Assembly (NCBI RefSeq): GCF_003259375.1
Contig: NZ_QLLN01000004.1
Coordinates: 62,001-126,000, forward strand
DNA length: 64,000 bases
Direction: 5' to 3'
Source of the DNA: Arenibacter echinorum
GTDB taxonomy: Bacteria; Bacteroidota; Bacteroidia; Flavobacteriales; Flavobacteriaceae
The notes beneath the pieces were generated by a model that made no database searches, had not been told where the DNA came from, and saw only the letters and a list, made by a program, of their open reading frames with translations. The translations under genes and the position numbers were made by a program. Shown in pieces: positions 53,717 through 63,700 of the stretch. The stretch's first letter is position 1. Every line of letters starts with the position of its first letter.

Positions 53717-54688
53717 CTACAAGTTTATAACCACATTGCCTCTTTTGCGGCCAGTGTCCACATAGCTATGGGCCTTATCAACTTCATGAAGGGTATAGCG
53801 TTTATCTATGACCAATTTTAATTTCCCAGCATTCAAAAGATTTGTGAGCTCATGCAACATGTTCCTAAGCTTTGGAACAGCTACAAGTCCGGTCGCCGCA
53901 AACTTTGCTTTTTTGCTGCCAAATTTAGAGGTCCACAGCATTTGAAATAATAGTGGCATACTTAATACTGGTGAGAGGTAGGTGCCATTTTTCGTAAGTA
54001 TTTCTTTGCATGCAGGGAATGAGCTCTTACCCACTGTATCAAAAATAACATCATAACTGTTAGCTGTTTTAGTAAAATCTACCTTTGTATAATCTATGGC
54101 ATGATCCGCTCCAAGCGATCTTACCATGGCAAAATTGGAAGAACTGCAAACCGCGGTTACATCCGCGCCAAGATAATTGGCCAATTGCACCGCTGCAGAA
54201 CCTAAACTACCCGAAGCGCCATTTATAAGCACTCTTTGTCCACTTTTCACATTGGCCATTTCCTTTAAATAATTCCAAGAGGTCAAAGGCCCGTCACACA
54301 CACCTGCAAGTTCTTCATGAGCTACATTTTTAGGCCTAACCGCCACTAAACCTTCTTCTGAAACACATAAATATTCCGCATTAGAGCCTGCACCAAATAT
54401 CGACTCCCCAAAGACTTCATCCCCTACTTGGAAACGTTGCACACTGCCGCCAACAGCCTCAACTATTCCAGAAAAACCCGTACCGGCTATAGGATACTTG
54501 GGCTTTGTTAAACCAATAAAAAGTCTACCGTACCATGGATTCCCGCTTCGCATCATGGTGTCTGCCCTAGTTACACTGGCAGCTTTTACCTTTATCAAAA
54601 TCTCTTTCTCTTTGGGTAAGGGTTTTGGAACATCCTGAAGTTGTAAAACCTTGGGTGAACCATACTTTGTAATTATGATCGCTTTCAT
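53717..54688 (-). CDS. Zinc-independent MDR-family NAD(P)-dependent oxidoreductase (quinone reductase type)
   Basis: A 323-residue medium-chain reductase/dehydrogenase. The N-terminal GroES-like domain has EILIKVKAASVTRADTMMRSG and lacks the Zn-ligating Cys/His set. The Rossmann half has GQRVLINGASGSLGSAAVQLANYLGA and then SLGADHAIDYTKVDF. This is the quinone oxidoreductase/enoyl reductase subgroup, using NADPH to reduce quinones or alpha,beta-unsaturated carbonyls. It has its own promoter, preceded by an inverted repeat (54738-54759) that looks like an operator. Confidence 0.9.
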   Translation of the reverse strand: MKAIIITKYGSPKVLQLQDVPKPLPKEKEILIKVKAASVTRADTMMRSGNPWYGRLFIGLTKPKYPIAGTGFSGIVEAVGGSVQRFQVGDEVFGESIFGAGSNAEYLCVSEEGLVAVRPKNVAHEELAGVCDGPLTSWNYLKEMANVKSGQRVLINGASGSLGSAAVQLANYLGADVTAVCSSSNFAMVRSLGADHAIDYTKVDFTKTANSYDVIFDTVGKSSFPACKEILTKNGTYLSPVLSMPLLFQMLWTSKFGSKKAKFAATGLVAVPKLRNMLHELTNLLNAGKLKLVIDKRYTLHEVDKAHSYVDTGRKRGNVVINL

Positions 54689-54708: not shown

Positions 54709-54716
54709 CAAATGTA
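54709..54716 (-). promoter_or_regulatory. -7 box of the MDR oxidoreductase gene
   Basis: TACATTTG on the minus strand (54716-54709) matches TAnnTTTG, about 20 bp before the ATG at 54688. Confidence 0.6.
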
Positions 54717-54737: not shown

Positions 54738-54759
54738 GTTCGGATTTTAGAATCGGAAC
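54738..54759. promoter_or_regulatory. Inverted repeat, candidate operator of the oxidoreductase gene
   Basis: GTTCGGATT-TTAG-AATCGGAAC: 9-bp arms with one mismatched position. It lies 22-43 bp upstream of the -7 box, near the -33 region, where an activator or repressor would bind. The half-site GTTCCGATT recurs at 56390 and 60834. Confidence 0.5.
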
Positions 54760-54829: not shown

Positions 54830-55273
54830 TTACTTTTTTAATTCCATATGTAAAATGGGGTAGGGTTTTCCTGAAGCATCCAATTCCGAACGACCTATTA
54901 TTTCGAAGCCACAATGCTTATAAAATTCAACAGCCTGTTCGTTCTGCTCATTTACATCGACAGCATTTACTTTAAATTCATTTATGGAAAATGTCAATAA
55001 ACTCTTGCCAATTCCCATTCCCTGGTATGCGGGGTGTATAAATAGCATTTCCAGATGCATACCTGCCACGCCCATAAAACCGATTATTTCCATAACCTTG
55101 TTCCTTATACACCTTAATTCGACAACATTTAAATACTCGTTCAATATTAGCGGTTTAAAATATTGAATGTCCTCTTCCCGTAAAAATTGGTGTGTGGCTC
55201 TGACAGAGGCCTCCCAAACCTCGACCACTTCAGGGAATTGGTCCTTGGAGATCTTATCTATTTTATATGTCAT
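54830..55273 (-). CDS. GNAT-family N-acetyltransferase
   Basis: A 147-residue protein with the GNAT acetyl-CoA site HPAYQGMGIGKSLLTF and the C-terminal strand pattern VNEQNEQAVEFYKHCGFEIIGRSELD. These single-domain acetyltransferases modify small molecules or N-termini; PYPILHMEL at the end is common in the YafP/ElaA-like branch. Target unknown. It is a monocistronic gene upstream of the oxidoreductase operator region. Confidence 0.88.
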   Translation of the reverse strand: MTYKIDKISKDQFPEVVEVWEASVRATHQFLREEDIQYFKPLILNEYLNVVELRCIRNKVMEIIGFMGVAGMHLEMLFIHPAYQGMGIGKSLLTFSINEFKVNAVDVNEQNEQAVEFYKHCGFEIIGRSELDASGKPYPILHMELKK

Positions 55274-55406: not shown

Positions 55407-56315
55407 CTATTCACAGGTAATATTTAATTCTTGATATTCGGATATTGAAACATTAGGTATGTTCTGTCCACTTTCAATTTTAATACAATTTAAATTAGGA
55501 TTTCTATCTACCTTTAAATCAATTAATTCCTGATTACCGCCCACATTCAGATCCGTAAGCGAATTGCTTGAAATATAAAGGTGTGTTAAACTGGCATTAT
55601 GTTCAAGATCAATATTCTGAATTTTATTGTCAGAAATCAATAAGGTTTCCAATTTTACATTTTTGCTAAAATCTACAGAAGTTAGCTCATTCGTCGTTAG
55701 CAATATATTTTTCAGATTTATAGATCTTTTGACATCAAAGGAATGTAATATATTGTTACTTATTTTCAATATTTCAAGAGTTTCATTTTCAATGCTAAAT
55801 TCTTCCAATTCGTTAAAGGATAGATTTAATTCTTTTAAGTGAGCCGCTTTGGAAAGTCCGTTAATGGCACTAAGTTGGTTAGACTGCACATCCAACAAAA
55901 TTAAATTGGGGTTGTTACTGATATCAATGTTGGAGATATAGTTGCCAGCAAGAACTAAAGTGTCCAACAAAGTATTGTGAGTTAAGTCGATACCCGTTAT
56001 TTCCTGCTGCGTTGCAGATAGCTTCCTTAGCCCCACGAAGCCTTCAATTCCGGTCAAATCACTTATTACACCCTCACTTGAAAAATTTAAATCCAGAACA
56101 CTTACTTCCGAAGCATCTTTTCTCAACATCCTTTGATTTAGGACTCCGTCCGAATCTATACCCTCCTCTATTAAAACAGCTTCAAAACTAGAATCTGGTA
56201 TATACAGGTATTGATTTTCATAAGAGTCCTTATCGTTATTGGCACATGATGTTAATAAGATTGTAATCAGAATTGCTAAGAGAATTGCCTTCCCAATGAT
56301 AAATGTACTATTCAT
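55407..56315 (-). CDS. Leucine-rich-repeat lipoprotein
   Basis: A 302-residue protein with a lipoprotein signal (LLTSC, Cys24). After an N-terminal segment like other Bacteroidota LRR proteins (YIPDSSFEAVLIEEGIDSDGVLNQRML), it has about eight internalin-type repeats of 20-22 residues (LDTLVLAGNYISNIDISNN, LKELNLSFNELEEF, LETLLISDNKIQNIDLEHN, LTHLYISSNSLTDLNVGGN). It ends with a Cys pair (LNCIKIE, ITCE) typical of the cap. It is probably a surface protein for binding. The end of the cyclase-AraC gene upstream holds an AAGGTTCCGATT element 75-85 bp before the start. Confidence 0.85.
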   Translation of the reverse strand: MNSTFIIGKAILLAILITILLTSCANNDKDSYENQYLYIPDSSFEAVLIEEGIDSDGVLNQRMLRKDASEVSVLDLNFSSEGVISDLTGIEGFVGLRKLSATQQEITGIDLTHNTLLDTLVLAGNYISNIDISNNPNLILLDVQSNQLSAINGLSKAAHLKELNLSFNELEEFSIENETLEILKISNNILHSFDVKRSINLKNILLTTNELTSVDFSKNVKLETLLISDNKIQNIDLEHNASLTHLYISSNSLTDLNVGGNQELIDLKVDRNPNLNCIKIESGQNIPNVSISEYQELNITCE

Positions 56316-56380
56316 TATTAAGTCTAAAATGGTTTATTTGAGACAAAGATGTATAAAATGTCAGGACTGGTTGTTCTAAA

Positions 56381-58732
56381 TTACAAATCGGAACCTTTTA
56401 AGCCACTATTTTTTTTCCAATAAGCACTGGGGGTTGTACCCATTGTTTTTTTAAAATAGGTATTAAAGACGGTCTTGGAGTTAAAGCCGCTATCATATGC
56501 CAACGCCAAGATAGTGAGATGTCTTTGGGATTGGTCGGCCACCTTGGCCTTAAAGGTCTCCAGACGGTAGGTGTTCACATAGTCGGCAAAATTTTTCCCA
56601 TATCCCTCATTTAGCAGCTGTGATAAATGATTGGAAGGAATTTCCATCATTTCAGCCAAAATGGGAAGTGTAAGGTTGGGGTCCAAGTAGGGCTCCTCTT
56701 CCAACATCAAGCGATCCAAGTTTTTCCTGTATTCCTGTAGCTCCTTTTTATTGAACAACGATTTTTGATACTTCCGTTTCTTGGTCGAAAATTTACTGTC
56801 TTCACCCAAAACTTCCTTCCTAAGTTCCTTAAATCGAGGCATTCCGTACAATGGCCTGAGTATTGGATCCACAAAAATATAAATCATCATTGGCAATCTG
56901 TGGGCAATACCTTGTTCTATTAGGCTAATGGTTTCCGGTATCTTTCCCAACAACGCATTACACATAATAAGCAAGTTTAAGGCCCTCCCCATAAGATCGG
57001 TTGCCAGAGCAGCTTCCAACTTAGCAATTCCTCTTTCGGCTTGATCCTTATTACCTAATAATGCATGTGCCATCGTTGTTCCTCCGAGTCTCATGACATC
57101 TTCTGTTTCATTCTGCGGTAATTTCTCAAAAAAGGCCAATCCTTCCTTGCCTTTCCCCATCAATAACAGTGATTGTCCCCAATATAAGGTAGAGGTTTTA
57201 AAATCTGATTTGAGCTCAACCGCCTTTTCAAAACTAGTAATGGCGTTGCCATATTTTTCTTCGCAGTAATCAATAAATCCTTTGAGATGATAATTTACCG
57301 AGGAAAAAGGATCAAGCTGAAGGGCGGTTTCAATATAGGTCCGTGCCGCACCAAATTTTCCTTCAGCTACCAAAGTGGATGCCATACTGGGGTAATAATC
57401 CACAATTGGTCCAGCTTCATACACCCTATTCAAATGCCGATAGGTTCCTGGAAGATCCCATTTTTGAATCAAGGAGGCATAGGAAAGGTGCAATTGACAT
57501 TCGGGCAAATTTTCGTCCAATTCAATGGCCTTGTCCAAAAAAGGCTGTCCCTTTGCAAAGGCATCTTGTAATGGCACCAAACCTATTGTACCCAAAAGGG
57601 TGTAGGCCAGATGCATCCCCAAATGGGCCAATGCAAAATGTGGCCAATCCTTTATAATTTCTTCCAAAATTGAAATCCCCGTTTCAATATCGGACTTGCC
57701 CATCTTTAAAATATGATACCTACTTTTTAAATAACGTTGGTAGATATCCACTGGTACTTCTGGGTCTTGGACCAATTGGCCTTCAATTTCAAAATGACCA
57801 ATATGTTCCCGTAACCTTTCGGCAATGAGCAGGCTAATTTCATCTTGAACGGCAAAAACATCTTCCAAGGACCTATCAAAAGTCTCCGACCAAAAATGAA
57901 AATCATCCTTAACATCGATGAGCTGTGCAGTTATGCGCATTTTATTTTTGGACAAACGTACGCTGCCTTCCAAGATAGTAGACACATTAAGTTCCTTACC
58001 TATCTGGGCTATGGGTAGATTAACATTTTTAAAATGAAAGGAAGAGGTTCTAGAAGTTACTTTTAATCCCTTGATTTTAGCAAGGGCGTTTATGATTTCC
58101 TCTGTCATGCCGTCACTAAAATACTCATTGTCCGTACTGGAACTCATATTTACAAAGGGGAGAACAGCAATAGACTTGGGCTCATTTACTGGAACGTTCA
58201 CAAGACCGGAACGACTGGGCACCTGAATACCTTCATTTTTTACCGCAAATACTTCAACCGGTTTAGCAATATTCTTAAGACTAAAATGGCCCAAGGACAA
58301 GGTGGGAATATGTGGATGGTTTATAAGCTCATCATTTAGTTTCCCTGATAGCAAAATTGAACCTGCAATTCCCAGGCTCTCTATACGGGAAGCCAAATTT
58401 ACCCCGTCCCCATATACTTCCGTACCATCAAAAACAATATCCCCTAGATGTAACCCAATGCGAAGGGGCACGGCATTTTTCTTTTGCAAGGCTTTTTGTA
58501 TGGCAATGGCGCATTCCACTGCCTCCAACCCACTGGAAAAAATGCTCAGGGTTCCGTCGCCATAATATTGCAGGATATCCCCATTATAGAGTTTATGATT
58601 TTTTTCGAACTCCTGTCTATGTCGGGCCCGCATTTCCGCTGCGGCATTTTCATCCCTTTGCATCAGCGCGGTGTAGCCAACAATATCGGTAAACATTATG
58701 ACTGCAATACGGCGGTTTTTATTGCTTGGCAT
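56381..58732 (-). CDS. Class III nucleotide cyclase fused to TolB-like, TPR and AraC DNA-binding domains
   Basis: A 783-residue cytoplasmic protein without membrane helices. Residues about 5-165 are a class III cyclase: VIMFTDIVGYTALM with metal Asp16, YYGDGTLSIF with Asp59, and YGDGVNLASR with transition-state Asn112 and Arg116. Residues about 186-310 are the TolB/FlgO-like domain often seen with such cyclases (KSIAVLPFVNMS, EYFSDGMTEEIINALAKI). About 335-610 are TPR-like repeats, and about 685-783 an AraC-type helix-turn-helix pair (ILALAYDSGFNSKTVFNTYFKK, GTTPSAYWKK). Base-selecting positions carry Gln55 and Glu105, so ATP preference is not certain. A sensor, messenger synthase and regulator in one chain is unusual. 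It is divergent from a second cyclase (139 bp). Confidence 0.9.
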   Translation of the reverse strand: MPSNKNRRIAVIMFTDIVGYTALMQRDENAAAEMRARHRQEFEKNHKLYNGDILQYYGDGTLSIFSSGLEAVECAIAIQKALQKKNAVPLRIGLHLGDIVFDGTEVYGDGVNLASRIESLGIAGSILLSGKLNDELINHPHIPTLSLGHFSLKNIAKPVEVFAVKNEGIQVPSRSGLVNVPVNEPKSIAVLPFVNMSSSTDNEYFSDGMTEEIINALAKIKGLKVTSRTSSFHFKNVNLPIAQIGKELNVSTILEGSVRLSKNKMRITAQLIDVKDDFHFWSETFDRSLEDVFAVQDEISLLIAERLREHIGHFEIEGQLVQDPEVPVDIYQRYLKSRYHILKMGKSDIETGISILEEIIKDWPHFALAHLGMHLAYTLLGTIGLVPLQDAFAKGQPFLDKAIELDENLPECQLHLSYASLIQKWDLPGTYRHLNRVYEAGPIVDYYPSMASTLVAEGKFGAARTYIETALQLDPFSSVNYHLKGFIDYCEEKYGNAITSFEKAVELKSDFKTSTLYWGQSLLLMGKGKEGLAFFEKLPQNETEDVMRLGGTTMAHALLGNKDQAERGIAKLEAALATDLMGRALNLLIMCNALLGKIPETISLIEQGIAHRLPMMIYIFVDPILRPLYGMPRFKELRKEVLGEDSKFSTKKRKYQKSLFNKKELQEYRKNLDRLMLEEEPYLDPNLTLPILAEMMEIPSNHLSQLLNEGYGKNFADYVNTYRLETFKAKVADQSQRHLTILALAYDSGFNSKTVFNTYFKKTMGTTPSAYWKKNSGLKGSDL

Positions 58733-58871
58733 TAGTTTTTGGTCTAAGATTTTATTTCTTATAAAGACAACTCATTTCAAAAGTACAATAATTTGCAATA
58801 ACCCATTTTAAGGGACAATTTCAAAAAAGACATTAACTTTACGATGGTTTTCCAAGAGTTTATTTTTCTGT

Positions 58872-59969
58872 ATGTCCTTAAAATTATCTCCCAAAGTTAA
58901 AAGAAACCTTTCCCGAATAATCCCGTTCGGAATTATTTGGCTGGTATCTGGTTGGGTATTTTGGATCGTGGAGCAAGCCGCAGCGGGCAACTCCGACCAG
59001 GACCAATCCTCCAGGATTGCCATGAATTTTGAGGTATTCCTCTTTTCCAGCGCTGCCCTCATGATTGTTGGACTGCTTATTGGGACCATAGAACTCCTTT
59101 ATCTTAACCAAGTTTTTTCAAAAAAAAGTTTTACCAAGAAGATCGTATACAAAACCATATTTTACATTGTGTTGCTGTTAATCATAACCTGCATCACCTA
59201 TCCTATAGCCAAGAGCTTGGAACTGGACATTTCAATCTTTGACCAACGCGTCTGGGATATGTTCGGGGATTACCTTACCAGCATTACACACCTAAGTACC
59301 GATATACAGTTAGCGACATCACTTTTGGCCTCCTTATTCTACTCCGAAATCAGTGAAAATATAGGGCACGGTGTCCTAATGAATTTCTTTACAGGAAAAT
59401 ATCATACCCCTACCGAGGAATTGAGGATTTTCATGTTCTCAGATATGAAATCTTCCACCGCAATAGCGGAGCAATTGGGCCATATTAAATATTTTGAATT
59501 GTTAAAAGAGTATTACTCGGATTTTTCCGAAGCTATTATTCAACATTCAGGGGAAATATACCAATATGTTGGGGACGAAATTATTATCTCCTGGAAATAT
59601 GAGGCCGGTGTTGTAAACAACAATTGTATCAAATGTTTTTTTGCCATGAAAAAGGACCTTCACAAAAGGGCGGAATGGTATTCCTCCCACTACGGCATTA
59701 CACCTACCTTTAAAGCGGGATTTCACTTCGGGAAGGTAACTACAGGGGAAATAGGTGAGCTGAAAAAGGAAATTATATTTACCGGAGACGTCCTCAATAC
59801 CACCGCTAGAATTCAGGGGCTCTGCAACCCATTAAATGTAGACATCCTAATTTCCGGGGATTTGTGCCAAAGCCTAACCCTTGAACCGGAATTCAAAATA
59901 CAATCCTTGGGCAAAAACGAACTGAAAGGAAAAGAGCAAAACATGGAATTGTTCACTATTAAGGATTAG
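58872..59969 (+). CDS. Membrane-anchored class III adenylate/guanylate cyclase
   Basis: A 365-residue protein. The first 175 residues hold about three to four membrane helices (PFGIIWLVSGWVFWIVE, FLFSSAALMIVGLLIGTIELLYL, TIFYIVLLLIITCITYPIA, LATSLLASLFYSEI). The C-terminal half is a class III cyclase: IFMFSDMKSSTAI with metal Asp191, YQYVGDEIIISW with Asp235, and TGDVLNTTARIQGL with the Asn/Arg pair. It differs from the soluble cyclase next door but shares Gln in place of the usual ATP-selecting Lys. It shares a 139-bp divergent promoter region with the cyclase-AraC gene, so the two are probably regulated together. Confidence 0.88.
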   Translation: MSLKLSPKVKRNLSRIIPFGIIWLVSGWVFWIVEQAAAGNSDQDQSSRIAMNFEVFLFSSAALMIVGLLIGTIELLYLNQVFSKKSFTKKIVYKTIFYIVLLLIITCITYPIAKSLELDISIFDQRVWDMFGDYLTSITHLSTDIQLATSLLASLFYSEISENIGHGVLMNFFTGKYHTPTEELRIFMFSDMKSSTAIAEQLGHIKYFELLKEYYSDFSEAIIQHSGEIYQYVGDEIIISWKYEAGVVNNNCIKCFFAMKKDLHKRAEWYSSHYGITPTFKAGFHFGKVTTGEIGELKKEIIFTGDVLNTTARIQGLCNPLNVDILISGDLCQSLTLEPEFKIQSLGKNELKGKEQNMELFTIKD

Positions 59970-60021
59970 ATCAGCTTTACATTTACAGGATGTAGGCTTG
60001 CTAACCTTGCTGACAAACCAT

Positions 60022-60768
60022 CTAATCCAATGGCAAAAAAGTTAAGCTGATAAAAAGCAAATTGGTACCCATATGAACAAATAAGGGATATTTAAACCCA
60101 AAGCTTAGTCGTGTATATCCGGCAATGGTGGCACTAAACAACTGGGGCAAGGTTATAATGGGAAGTAACAGTACATTGGTACAGGTCAGTTCAAAATTAA
60201 AAATATGCAACCAGGCAAACAGCACACAGGAAAGGTAATAAATCCACCTAATATTATTCTCCCAAATAGCGGCTAACTTTTGGGCGATTTTTTTCCTATA
60301 CATTAAGGCATATGCAATTACACCAATAAACAGGGAGAGTAATACCCGGGTATAAAAAGTTTCATCTACTAGGCTCAGGTTGGTTTTGTATATGGCTTTT
60401 GTAAGCAAGTAATATGATAGCGACGTAAAAGTAAGAGCCGCATACAGCGGTTTAAACTTAAGACTCAATCTAAAGCATATTTCTTCATAGAGGGGTAGTA
60501 TTAAACCTCCCACCAAGAGGTAGGTTAAAGGAGCAAACCGCTCCGACATATTGGCATCCGTGATATTTTTTGGCTCATAAAAAACAGCCAGTACATTTGC
60601 TACCAATAGCGAAAAGACCAGTTTAATAAGGAACAATCCCAGGGTGTCGTATATTTTATTCCTGACTGTTAGATCTTTTAAGGGAAGATACTGGGGCTGA
60701 GAGACAAACTGCATTAAGTTCTTAATCAATCCCAAATAAAATTTTGGTTTTACAAAAGGGTAATTCAT
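60022..60768 (-). CDS. CPBP-family intramembrane metalloprotease
   Basis: A 248-residue protein with six or so membrane helices. It keeps the three CPBP motifs: LYEEICFR (catalytic Glu-Glu...Arg), FAWLHIFNF (His) and LFVHMGTNLL (His...Asn). The family (Abi/Rce1-like) cleaves membrane or prenylated peptides; in bacteria most members are untested. Its start faces the cyclase-less AraC regulator, with a 20-bp direct repeat in the shared 230-bp region, so it is a candidate target of that regulator. Confidence 0.85.
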   Translation of the reverse strand: MNYPFVKPKFYLGLIKNLMQFVSQPQYLPLKDLTVRNKIYDTLGLFLIKLVFSLLVANVLAVFYEPKNITDANMSERFAPLTYLLVGGLILPLYEEICFRLSLKFKPLYAALTFTSLSYYLLTKAIYKTNLSLVDETFYTRVLLSLFIGVIAYALMYRKKIAQKLAAIWENNIRWIYYLSCVLFAWLHIFNFELTCTNVLLLPIITLPQLFSATIAGYTRLSFGFKYPLFVHMGTNLLFISLTFLPLD

Positions 60769-60830
60769 GATATATTCTTTTAGTGTTCCATACTATTTTC
60801 TGGAGCAAGTTAGTCAGGAGGACACCCTTA

Positions 60831-60866
60831 AAGGTTCCGATTATCATTAAAAGGTTCTGATTTTCA
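60831..60866 (+). promoter_or_regulatory. Direct repeat, candidate AraC-type operator
   Basis: AAGGTTCCGATTATCA (60831-60846) and AAGGTTCTGATTTTCA (60851-60866) agree at 14 of 16 positions with a period of 20 bp, about two helical turns. AraC-family dimers bind such tandem sites on one DNA face. It lies 63-98 bp upstream of the CPBP start and 133-168 bp upstream of the AraC-type regulator start. Confidence 0.55.
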
Positions 60867-60998
60867 AGCGGGCCTTGATTTTAAAAATTAGTTCCTGAAT
60901 ATGACCCTTGCCGAGCTACTAAAACTGGATACTTTTAGATTAAAATTTGTATTTTAGTTGCGATTTTTTTCTATTTAACGAACAACCCCTGCCCACGA

Positions 60999-62792
60999 GT
61001 GCATACCTCTTTCAATCCAAAGTCTATTGCAGTACTCCCTTTTGTAAACATTGGAAGGGAAGAAAACGAGTACTTTTCGGACGGAATTACGGAGGAAATT
61101 ATCAATGCGCTGACCAAAGTCCGGGACCTAAAGGTAACTGCTAGAACATCTTCCTTTTACTACAAACAAAAGAATCTGGACGCCCGTCTTATAGGAAATG
61201 AGCTTGGAGTGGAAACATTACTGGAAGGAAGCGCAAGGATTGTAAATGATCGGGTAAGGATAACTGCCCAATTGATACGTACCGACACCGGATTTCATAT
61301 CTGGTCCGAGAATTTTGATCGCGACCTTTCCGATATATTTGAACTACAGGATGAGATTAGCCTACTAATCGCCGACAAGATTAGGGAGAACTTTGGGCAC
61401 TTGGAGGTTCAGGAACATTTAATTGAAGCCCCTACCAAAAATATTGAGGCCTACAAGCACCTTCTAAAGGGCCGTGAATTGCGCATGCGCTGGAACGCCC
61501 AGGATGTCAAGGATGCCATCCCCTATTTTGACCAAAGCATTACTCTAGACCCAAGTTATGCCGATGCCCATTTTGAAAAAGGTTGGTGCTTGGGAATGCT
61601 TGCCAGTTGGGGTTACTTGAAAAAGGATGAAGGACTTCTGGAGGCCAATAGGCACATTGATATTGGGCTGCAATTGAATCCCAACTCCGCCATGGGGCAT
61701 TATGTTAAGGGCACCATCAGTTTTTGGGGCTATTGGAACTATAAGGATGCCTTTGAACATTTACAATTGTCCCTTGAAATTAATCCTAATTCCTCGGAAG
61801 TACGTGATGCCATGGCAGACGGGTTTTCTGCCTTGGGAAAAATAGACGAAGCCTTGGCCAATAACGAAATGGCCTTGCGCATTAATCCCTTATCTGCCAA
61901 CCTATATTTCACCAAGGGCAATATGATTTATTTTAAAAAGAACTACCATGAAGCGGTTGTTCTTTTTGACAAGGCTTTATCAATAAATCCATTTTTTCCC
62001 TTGGCACTGGAAATGAAGGCTGCAGCCCTGATTTTAGATCGGCAGGTAGCTCTGCTGGCATCGTTTGTAGAAAATACTCCGCAGTTGGAACGACCTAATA
62101 CATATAGGGCCATTTACGACCTCATGCACAACGAAGATGTTTTTATTATATCAAAAAATGAAGTCGAAAAAGAGTTTCAGGAAGCCTCTGTGGTAAGTCT
62201 TCGTGCTTGGGACCTATATTACGAGGTTTATAGTGGCAATCATGAAATTGCCCTCGATATACTTGATGATCGAATCAAAGAGCGTTCTGGACAATTGTTC
62301 AATTTTAGAAACGATCCATTTTTAGAACCATTGCGTACCTATAGGAAATATAAGGAAATTGAAGACTCGGTATTTCTAACCCTCGATTTTCCAGAAGATA
62401 TTTTGGAACCCAAAAGTCCCGTAGCTTCATCCCCTTTGGACAATAGTCAAATTGAACATTACTCCGAAGCCATAGAACTATTAATGAATGAAAAAAAGCT
62501 ATACATTGACCCTGAACTTAGCTTAAAACAACTAGCCACCCATGTAGGTCTGCACGCCAACAAACTTTCATGGCTGTTGAACAATCATTTCGGTAAAAAT
62601 TTTAATGACTTCATTAATGGATTCCGGATATTGAAATTTCAAAAAATGGCCATAGATCCTGCCAATAAAAACCTGACACTACTTGGCCTGGCCTACGACA
62701 GTGGTTTCAACTCCAAGACTGTCTTCAACACTTTTTTTAAGAAAGAAACGGGGATGACACCCAAGCAGTGGGTGAAACAAAATACAACCTAA
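60999..62792 (+). CDS. TolB-like/TPR/AraC-family regulator without cyclase domain
   Basis: A 597-residue protein from the GTG at 60999 (no in-frame ATG upstream in the intergenic space). It begins almost exactly at the TolB-like domain (residue 8, KSIAVLPFVNIG; EYFSDGITEEIINALTKV), then TPR-like repeats (about 150-420; ANRHIDIGLQLNPNSA, ALANNEMALRINPLSANLY, AVVLFDKALSINPFFPLA), then an AraC helix-turn-helix (about 495-597; LGLAYDSGFNSKTVFNTFFKK, GMTPKQWVKQ). It is a paralogue of residues 180-783 of the cyclase fusion at 56381-58732. It could be a receiver or competitor of that protein. Confidence 0.88.
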   Translation: MHTSFNPKSIAVLPFVNIGREENEYFSDGITEEIINALTKVRDLKVTARTSSFYYKQKNLDARLIGNELGVETLLEGSARIVNDRVRITAQLIRTDTGFHIWSENFDRDLSDIFELQDEISLLIADKIRENFGHLEVQEHLIEAPTKNIEAYKHLLKGRELRMRWNAQDVKDAIPYFDQSITLDPSYADAHFEKGWCLGMLASWGYLKKDEGLLEANRHIDIGLQLNPNSAMGHYVKGTISFWGYWNYKDAFEHLQLSLEINPNSSEVRDAMADGFSALGKIDEALANNEMALRINPLSANLYFTKGNMIYFKKNYHEAVVLFDKALSINPFFPLALEMKAAALILDRQVALLASFVENTPQLERPNTYRAIYDLMHNEDVFIISKNEVEKEFQEASVVSLRAWDLYYEVYSGNHEIALDILDDRIKERSGQLFNFRNDPFLEPLRTYRKYKEIEDSVFLTLDFPEDILEPKSPVASSPLDNSQIEHYSEAIELLMNEKKLYIDPELSLKQLATHVGLHANKLSWLLNNHFGKNFNDFINGFRILKFQKMAIDPANKNLTLLGLAYDSGFNSKTVFNTFFKKETGMTPKQWVKQNTT

Positions 62793-62980
62793 CACAAAAA
62801 CGGTATTTTATAGGTTGCCCAAAAAAGGTTGATATAGCCAATAAGGGGATCCCTATTTATCTTGGCCCATCAATAAGTTCCAAATCCCACCCAAATAGTT
62901 CGGAAACATAAGTACGGGCGTTTGGCACCCACTACGTTTTCATCTTTGCCCCACAATTAATCCTAAAACCTATCACAAAG

Positions 62981-63700
62981 ATGAAAAAGCAATTATTATT
63001 ATTTATTACAATGGCCACCTTTACCGGAAAGACCATGGCCCAAGAGACTTTTATGGATGTAGTGATCAACTACACCCCAACAAGTCTTAATTATGGGGAC
63101 AACAACAAAGCCCTTAAAGATTTTAAAAAGGGGTATTGGGGACTTCAGGCTGGAGCCTCCTTCCAAGCCGGAATCAATGAGTACCTATCCTTGGTCCCCG
63201 AACTATATTTTGTTATGAAAGGAGGACGTTTGGAAAATAACAACCCCCTTACCGGCCAGGAAACCAAGATCAGGTTCAACACCCTGGACCTACCTGTAAT
63301 GGCGCGACTGCATTTTTGCAACCTATATGTAAATGCCGGACCAGTAGTAAGCTATAACCTGGGAGGTCGGTTAAAAACCGAGAGCGATGGCAACTTGCCA
63401 GGAGAAAAGTCCAAAATGGCATTCGGTTCGGAACAAGGCACCTATAGTCGCTGGGATGCCGGCCTACAATTTGGAATGGGCTATGAGTTCAAATTTAAAA
63501 AATCGAGACTCTTACTAGACCTGCGCTATCATTATGGCATGGTGGACATTGGCAACGGGGCCGACATGTATAACCGCTATTTTAATATGAATATCCTGCT
63601 TTCCAAAAAATGGAAAACAAATCCGTTGGGAAAGAAAAAGAGACAGGATCTTGCGTTTTGGGATGCATATGACGAGGAATTGGATAATCCGTTGAATTAA
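62981..63700 (+). CDS. Outer-membrane beta-barrel protein (PF13568-like)
   Basis: A 239-residue protein with a signal peptide (KKQLLLFITMATFTGKTMAQ, cleavage after Ala-Gln near 21). The mature part follows the small porin/PorT-like barrel scheme: GYWGLQAGASFQAGINEYLSLVPELYFVMKGG, TLDLPVMARLHFCNLYVNAGPVVSYNLGG, AGLQFGMGYEFKFKKSRLLLDLRYHYG. After the last strand there is a charged tail (KWKTNPLGKKKRQDLAFWDAYDEELDNPLN), unusual for these barrels, which normally end at the strand. It starts 188 bp after the regulator gene and may be under its control (inference). Confidence 0.75.
   Translation: MKKQLLLFITMATFTGKTMAQETFMDVVINYTPTSLNYGDNNKALKDFKKGYWGLQAGASFQAGINEYLSLVPELYFVMKGGRLENNNPLTGQETKIRFNTLDLPVMARLHFCNLYVNAGPVVSYNLGGRLKTESDGNLPGEKSKMAFGSEQGTYSRWDAGLQFGMGYEFKFKKSRLLLDLRYHYGMVDIGNGADMYNRYFNMNILLSKKWKTNPLGKKKRQDLAFWDAYDEELDNPLN

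Follow-up and report, generated by a model that had tools for sequence, protein, structure and literature searches.

A stretch of 64,000 nt from the genome of Arenibacter echinorum (hereafter the window; G000:C4:62001-126000, of a whole genome of 5.19 Mb) contains a gene, designated A, whose product joins a class III nucleotide cyclase to an AraC-type transcription factor, and the locus raises the question of what such a protein controls, and with which partners. A previous sequence-only reading had grouped A with three adjacent genes (B, C, and D; Table 1) into a signalling island. From our comparisons of homologous loci, the conserved partner of A is an oxidoreductase gene, ADH, and not B, C, or D. 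The explanation that best fits the results as a whole, and in which we place considerable confidence, is that A would be a local one-component activator acting through a 22-bp palindrome, and that D would work likewise.

Pfam matches in A comprise Guanylate_cyc at residues 11-153 (37.5 bits against a cut-off of 21.9), TPRs at around residues 450-511 and HTH_18 at residues 692-773 (53.3 against 33.6 bits), with no match to an ATPase or LuxR domain at E values up to 0.001. The TolB-like part gave no Pfam match above the cut-off (FlgO, 22.1 against 22.6 bits) and is recognized by its fold: its structure model (predicted local distance difference test, pLDDT, 88.9) matched in Foldseek the N-terminal domains of TolB as well as PelC, LpoB, and periplasmic CadC, and the model of the whole protein (pLDDT 85.7; predicted template modelling score, pTM, 0.68) had structures of the Ma1120 cyclase as top matches. 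No hydrophobic segment was found by hydropathy in A or D. These four modules are those read earlier from the sequence alone, with the TolB-like domain identified at the level of fold. The genome search that had been proposed for this architecture recovered it, full-length, in many species of Bacteroidota, Balneolota and relatives, and it is therefore not due to chance; in its core, A shares 92% identity with its counterpart in locus L046.

Homologues were collected by searching genome contigs with the cyclase domain, and we kept the best 80 of 472 relatives, so that the counts given below describe close relatives and not a random sample. They comprise 59 loci with an AraC domain after the cyclase and the TolB-like part, and 21 without AraC; the latter are a mixed group, with a TolB-like part in 12 and none in 9. 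Locus L080, with a frameshifted frame and an AraC piece present, was scored as AraC-bearing, which turned the ADH counts from 44/52 and 1/19 into 45/53 and 0/18. Loci carrying two labels (L182 = L052, L187 = L093, L184 = L111, L185 = L113, G450:C12 = L108) were counted once in the totals of 59 and 21. Alignment A1 contained the window plus 50 of the 59 AraC-bearing loci.

ADH, a quinone-reductase-like member of the MDR family, was found downstream of A, on the same strand and within 6 kb, in 45 of the 53 AraC-bearing loci whose downstream sequence exceeds 1.5 kb, and behind none of the 18 AraC-less cyclase genes. The distance was 600 bp or less in 34 of 52 loci (L080 not counted), neither group had an opposite-strand ADH downstream, and the next commonest neighbour family reached 7 of the 80 loci at most. 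An ADH tree of 80 rows placed 50 of 57 regulator-linked ADHs in a single group without unlinked members (support 86), 40 of them in a subgroup with a support of 99, and the linked label required 5 changes as compared to 20.2 after shuffling. Seven linked ADHs fall outside the main group, and one of the 57, in L208, is around 13.6 kb from its regulator. The closest other relative of ADH in the host genome shows 34% identity. The top PDB sequence matches of ADH were a quinone oxidoreductase, RTN4IP1 and a chloroplast quinone-oxidoreductase homologue, and it is thus a fair guess that its role could be the detoxification of quinones or unsaturated carbonyls. The content proposed for the island was found, and its borders were too narrow: the conserved partner is outside positions 56,381-62,792.

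An unsupervised motif search (width 20; six near-duplicate loci omitted) on 35 regions upstream of ADH reached a log-likelihood of 443, as compared to 78-84 in three shuffles. The motif behind A is a 22-bp palindrome with the consensus GTTCNGATTT-NN-AAATCNGAAC, which was matched at 17 or more positions in 35 of 38 regions, while the best of 760 shuffles matched 15. With a leave-one-out matrix and a cut-off of 15 bits, 54 of the 58 AraC-bearing loci that could be tested (the sequence of L099 ends too early) had a site no more than 3 kb behind A, vs. none of 19 AraC-less loci; among the testable loci that did not take part in building the matrix, 20 of 24 had a site. As controls, the interior of A genes had no matrix site over 133 kb, shuffled sequence totalling 1.24 Mb gave a single site that scored at least 12 bits, and 405 kb of upstream flank had five, all of them placed in the D clusters of L045-L047, before a gene for a beta-lactamase-family protein, an NmrA-like protein or another protein. 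In the window, where 0.02 chance matches of the operator pattern are expected, putative operators precede ADH, LRR (a leucine-rich-repeat gene directly behind A) and E, a gene behind D. The LRR gene and its site are also present in L045-L047, and a site is kept in L048-L050, which lack D. Likewise, other genes directly behind A are preceded by a site, such as those for a beta-lactamase-family hydrolase (L052, L053, and L078) and for an NmrA-like protein (L093).

The palindrome was also searched for in whole genomes. With up to one mismatch, the host genome contains three sites, before ADH, LRR and the hydrolase gene behind D, the last of them 456 bases past the end of the window; the reversed control pattern gave one match. 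A different pattern, allowing up to two mismatches, matched four times, of which two were at this locus and the others elsewhere, and its control matched once. The first of these patterns, a fixed one, was scanned in 15 regulator-bearing and 15 comparison genomes; 13 of the latter had given no match, and G006 and G008 have AraC-less relatives. A strict site occurred at a regulator in 11 of the 15 regulator-bearing genomes (counted by hand; around 2.8 kb behind it in G029), which summed 32 sites, 13 of them at regulators, vs. 15 control matches; the comparison genomes summed 13 sites vs. 14 control matches. Exact sites were five, in G000, G241, G237 (two, one of them elsewhere) and G288, and none appeared in comparison genomes. 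The strict pattern is, on these counts, specific yet incomplete.

The operator has in most cases one fixed position with respect to the promoter. The -7 consensus of the flavobacterial sigma-A factor is given as TANNTTTG in the accessible text of PMC9723704; the full box appeared 16-26 nt after 37 of 68 sites, at exactly 21 nt in 36 of them, with a mean of 0.5 in shuffled sequences. Likewise, 55 of 66 sites have TTTG at an offset of exactly 25, while the next most frequent offset accounts for 3 sites. An offset of 25 was also seen for the ADH, LRR and E sites in the window and, counted by hand, for the hydrolase site L216:6457. As the edge of the operator is at one fixed distance from the -7 box, we infer an activator that would touch RNA polymerase, and the most likely role of both A and D is to activate transcription locally. 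The direct control of local promoters, also anticipated by the sequence-only reading, is supported by comparison, through predicted operators at the same spacing before three genes of the window. In L055, L081, and L093 the -7 box is 42 nt after the palindrome and operator-like half-sites occur in between, as if there were two operators in tandem; the distance in L109 is 41 nt.

Alternatively, A could repress ADH, its promoter being shut until a signal frees it. The site adjoins the promoter, and palindromic operators near promoters are common for repressors; conversely, repressor sites tolerate varied spacing, most AraC proteins activate, and the single spacing seen here leaves the -7 box free, as is the geometry of activators. 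We thus regard repression as unlikely.

A similar operator is predicted to serve cyclase-less regulators like D. A separate motif search behind 27 of 30 such regulators (three near-duplicates omitted) retrieved the same half-site, followed by GAT (159 vs. 79 and 83 in two shuffles). The joint pattern of the ends of the palindrome plus TTTG at offset 25 occurred in 11 of 37 cyclase-less loci and in 38 of 58 cyclase-bearing AraC loci, and in none of 200 shuffles or 19 AraC-less loci; four of the 11 are one Arenibacter locus (L216, L045-L047), and the independent number is smaller. Additionally, the cyclase-less regulators from L199, L201, L203, L211, L213, L214, and L216 occur with genes for NmrA-like NAD(P)-binding, beta-lactamase-family, alpha/beta-hydrolase and DUF4386 proteins, which looks like a shared type of regulon.

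In the regulator tree (94 of 99 rows, after removing five duplicates), the presence of the cyclase required 5 changes, at least 3 of them forced by well-supported branches, vs. 29.5 after shuffling. D (HTH_18, 50.2 bits against a cut-off of 33.6) aligns to residues 185-776 of A with 35% identity; it therefore has the last three modules of A, beginning at the domain border, and the starts of both genes are 2.27 kb apart, all as first described. D is not, however, a recent copy of A stripped of its cyclase, because it belongs to a deep clade composed exclusively of cyclase-less proteins, in a tree whose deepest branches are weak. Nor is it the sole paralogue of A, since the host genome encodes a third, D-sized regulator (C3:641883; 39% identity to A), as well as more distant ones. 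Conversely, seven cyclase-less proteins are found inside the A clade. Those from L189, L190, L191, and L210 retain both ADH and the operator, which in L210 precedes an alpha/beta-hydrolase gene located before ADH, while L209 has the operator and no ADH; a cyclase encoded by a gene of its own was looked for in L188, L207, L209, and L210 and not found. The cyclase would then be dispensable for operator recognition, provided that the A-clade proteins read the site, given that cyclase-less members of this clade keep operator and ADH.

Several observations weigh against a local activator of the kind proposed here. The joint pattern is missing in 26 of the 37 cyclase-less loci, and two cyclase-less proteins of the A clade (L188 and L207_12990) have neither site nor ADH directly behind them. 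Four of the 58 testable AraC-bearing loci (L051, L058, L085, and L086) have no site within 3 kb; in L051 there is one at 5.3 kb, and the protein of L086 is shorter and matches AraC weakly. Four of the 15 regulator-bearing genomes (G401, G045, G260, and G002) have no strict site at a regulator; a looser matrix detected sites in their stretches (L188, L213, L190, and L187, respectively). A palindrome is unusual for AraC proteins, whose sites are as a rule asymmetric or direct repeats, and another protein could read this operator. Many of the counted sites belong to related species, and not all of them are independent. Finally, autoregulation of A was not supported, because the best motif upstream of A (113 vs. 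98-105 in shuffles for width 20; 91 vs. 68-79 for width 14) was poly-A/T; a palindrome is present there in just L057 (19/22) and L068 (17/22), in both cases also before a divergent gene. Upstream of D there are two candidate half-sites (60833-60844 and 60853-60864), of a type with four matches in the window vs. 2.16 expected; one of the two occurs in L045 and L046, and neither in L047.

The catalytic residues of the cyclase domain are strictly conserved. D16 and D59 of A, presumably the metal-binding aspartates, are kept in all 58 AraC-bearing rows covering them (one row does not have this region), and N112 and R116, which we take to be the transition-state asparagine and arginine, in 59 of 59. 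Class III cyclases select their substrate with a pair of residues, Lys/Asp in adenylate and Glu/Cys in guanylate cyclases, and A conforms to neither pair. At the position of the lysine there is a Gln (Gln55 in A) in 58 of 58 AraC-bearing and 21 of 21 AraC-less rows, and among the 59 AraC-bearing rows the partner position (Glu105 in A) has Glu 51 times and Asp 8 times; we assume that these two are the substrate-selecting positions. From the conservation of its catalytic residues, the cyclase of A is probably active, with an unusual selection of substrate.

It could be argued that the cyclase is the main output, A being a sensor cyclase whose AraC part governs just its own surroundings. The invariant catalytic residues and the existence of AraC-less cyclase proteins with the same residues are in line with this possibility, as is a gene for a cNMP_binding protein that closely precedes A in a Zobellia locus and has homologues in three other loci. 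Nevertheless, operator and ADH linkage track the AraC part, and persist in the cyclase-less proteins from L189, L190, L191, and L210 described above, while a cNMP-binding neighbour in four loci may be due to chance; we therefore find it improbable that the cyclase is the main output. The cNMP_binding protein (191 aa, 32.1 bits; L052:7705-8280) is encoded on the same strand as A and ends around 620-640 bp upstream of it; this arrangement is seen in two Zobellia species and in Maribacter antarcticus, and there is a homologue 1.3 kb downstream in Flavicella (loci L052, L053, L055, and L093). It is possible that this neighbour receives the product of the cyclase.

Table 1. Positions in the window of gene A, its predicted targets and operators, and neighbouring genes.
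Feature	Position	Strand	Basis
ADH, MDR-family oxidoreductase, quinone-reductase-like; predicted conserved target gene of A	53717..54688	-	Linkage, tree, Pfam, PDB
-7 promoter box of ADH, TACATTTG; begins 21 nt after operator	54709..54716	-	
Putative operator in ADH promoter, GTTCCGATTCTAAAATCCGAAC	54738..54759	-	Motif searches, matrix
GNAT acetyltransferase, between LRR and ADH	54830..55273	-	Pfam
LRR, leucine-rich-repeat protein; probable second target of A	55407..56315	-	Pfam LRR_4; operator 57 nt upstream
-7-like box of LRR, CATCTTTG; same 21-nt spacing	56344..56351	-	
Putative operator between A and LRR; overlaps the stop end of A	56373..56394	-	23.8 bits
A, class III cyclase - TolB-like fold - TPR - AraC/HTH_18 transcription factor, 783 aa	56381..58732	-	Pfam, homologues, model
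AraC-type DNA-binding domain of A, around residues 684-775	56408..56683	-	HTH_18 692-773
TolB-like domain of A, residues 185-324	57761..58180	-	Structure model; Foldseek
Cyclase domain of A, residues 1-172	58217..58732	-	Residue counts; Foldseek
B, membrane class III cyclase, divergent from A; occasional neighbour only	58872..59969	+	Pfam, hydropathy, distribution
C, possible CPBP/Rce1-like membrane protease	60022..60768	-	Weak matches
D, cyclase-less TolB-like - TPR - AraC regulator; separate old clade	60999..62792	+	Pfam, alignment, tree
Putative operator behind D, in E promoter, GTTCGGAAACATAAGTACGGGC	62898..62919	+	Same place in L045, L046, L047
-7-like box of E, CATCTTTG; same 21-nt spacing	62941..62948	+	
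E, outer-membrane beta-barrel protein; probable target of D	62981..63700	+	Pfam OMP_b-brl_2

The other components of the proposed island have a different distribution. B is a membrane cyclase divergent from A, as had been stated, with Guanylate_cyc at residues 187-364 (51.2 bits) and hydrophobic segments within residues 15-118. It also has Gln at the lysine position, and its second position is Ile in a hand alignment with photoactivated cyclases and Glu in the automatic alignment. The assignment of C as a CPBP protease was weakly supported, by matches below the cut-offs (Rce1-like in Pfam, 16.4 against 22.4 bits; a CPBP model in NCBIfam, 30.8 against 220 bits). Homologues of B, C, and D adjoin A, and are kept together with E, in L045-L047, and are absent from L048-L050, that is, in three of the six other Arenibacter loci. 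B adjoins A in 4 of the 59 AraC-bearing loci, three from this genus plus one from Kriegella (L076), where it occurs alone; homologues of C were found among the fetched loci only in L045-L047, and no genome-wide search was done for this gene. B-type cyclases constitute a family of their own, present in 43 of 395 genomes of the phylum at E values up to 1e-40, and have a regulator of the A or D type within 15 kb in 4 of these 43 (the host, G153, G261, and G450, the latter being the L108 locus). Non-conservation of the neighbours in relatives was the outcome that the sequence-only reading had itself named as telling against its island, and the comparison within Arenibacter leads us to reject B, C, and D as co-conserved partners of A.

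A gene with hexapeptide-transferase repeats (Pfam; L048:7975-8595) divergently adjoins A in L048, L049, and L062; it has homologues 8.6 kb away in L045 and L046, as well as in L216:10661-11281. From these positions, the B-C-D block looks like an insertion in L045 and L046, or a loss in the others. In L108, a B-like membrane cyclase gene (L108:10981-12090 = G450:C12:146388-147278) starts 61 bp after an AraC-less cyclase-TolB-TPR gene, a hint of a link between both types of cyclase far outside Flavobacteriaceae.

The distribution of these genes bears on whether A plus B-C-D could be one signalling system with two cyclases, D being a partner or an antagonist of A. Such a system could account for B, C, D, and E occurring together in L045-L047, for the B-like genes that neighbour regulators like D in two distant genomes sharing a genus (L199, L200/L201), for the pairing in L108 and for the common type of operator in the A and D clusters. 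The absence of the block from other loci of the same genus, the scarcity of B near A or near A/D-type regulators and the confinement of C to three fetched loci make it, however, quite unlikely, and we retain A and D as probable separate local activators. D could still act as a partner or competitor of A, since regulators of both types have this kind of operator.

Comparison with known systems also sets A apart. The AraC-less class III cyclase proteins have the same type of cyclase as A, with the same Gln, and in 12 of 21 cases a TolB-like part, and differ in having no AraC domain, no ADH neighbour (0/18) and no operator (0/19). CadC-type regulators possess a winged helix, a membrane segment and a periplasmic domain; A shares with them a TolB-like fold within a transcription regulator (Foldseek match to periplasmic CadC, 3ly7), and differs by the lack of a hydrophobic segment, the C-terminal HTH_18 domain and the cyclase. 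As in the AraC/XylS family, A has a C-terminal HTH_18/HTH_AraC domain and a predicted local target gene, although its site is a 22-bp palindrome and its regulatory part comprises the cyclase, TolB-like and TPR modules. The mycobacterial proteins of the Rv0386 type, as described in the accessible parts of PMC3938503 and PMC3466318, also carry a class III cyclase and a DNA-binding domain on one polypeptide, and an alternative mode of substrate binding is reported for Rv0386 (PMC3466318). They have, as far as those parts of the papers go, an AAA ATPase in the middle and a LuxR-type HTH, whereas A has TolB-like and TPR parts and an AraC-type HTH, comes from Bacteroidota, Balneolota and relatives, and has an operator and a target that can be named from sequence. 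In Pycsar defence, the accessible text of PMC11224242 describes PycC pyrimidine cyclases with PycTM or PycTIR effectors. A PADLOC scan covering A-D gave weak PycC matches only (B, 35.7 bits; A, 16.3 bits) and recognized no effector in C or D, which gave no match, and this identity was rejected. By its sequence, then, A is an AraC-family protein with a class III cyclase, of neither the Rv0386, CadC nor Pycsar type, and appears to work like a local activator of the AraC type. We found no published description of this architecture in a literature search covering few subscription papers.

Taken together, the statistics of sequence comparison, on which the architecture, the ADH linkage, the operator, its spacing from the promoter and the conservation of residues are founded, fit the following model. 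A would be a cytosolic one-component transcription activator whose AraC domain binds GTTCNGATTT-NN-AAATCNGAAC, with 21 nt between the edge of the site and the target's -7 box. Bound A would contact RNA polymerase and thereby turn on ADH and, in this species, LRR; D would be a sister-type activator with the same mode of action on its own cluster, formed by E and the gene for a beta-lactamase-family hydrolase just outside the window. The recognition of the operator by A and D themselves, the preference for activation over repression, and the signal are put forward here as parts of this model, as are any role of the cyclase and the purpose of detoxification. The TolB-like and TPR parts are likely a sensor or a protein-binding region, and the N-terminal cyclase could be an added module, serving either to signal activation through a cyclic nucleotide or to tune the dimer.

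It is a tentative idea, more doubtful than the model itself, that in this single polypeptide the cyclization of nucleotides gates or reports the binding of an AraC activator at one palindromic promoter. If true, A would be a transcription factor with its own second-messenger enzyme, of non-canonical selection (Gln plus Glu/Asp) and perhaps using neither ATP nor GTP, and a cyclic nucleotide would either broadcast or control each event of activation at the target gene. Fusions of cyclases with DNA-binding domains are known, and the A family lends itself to asking whether both halves communicate, because it offers a predicted operator and target, variants with and without cyclase on the same type of operator, and strictly conserved catalytic residues. 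A 22-bp DNA and a single protein would suffice to measure each of binding, transcription and cyclase activity, and this family of regulators from Bacteroidota and Balneolota would thus have a testable local regulon with a fixed promoter geometry.

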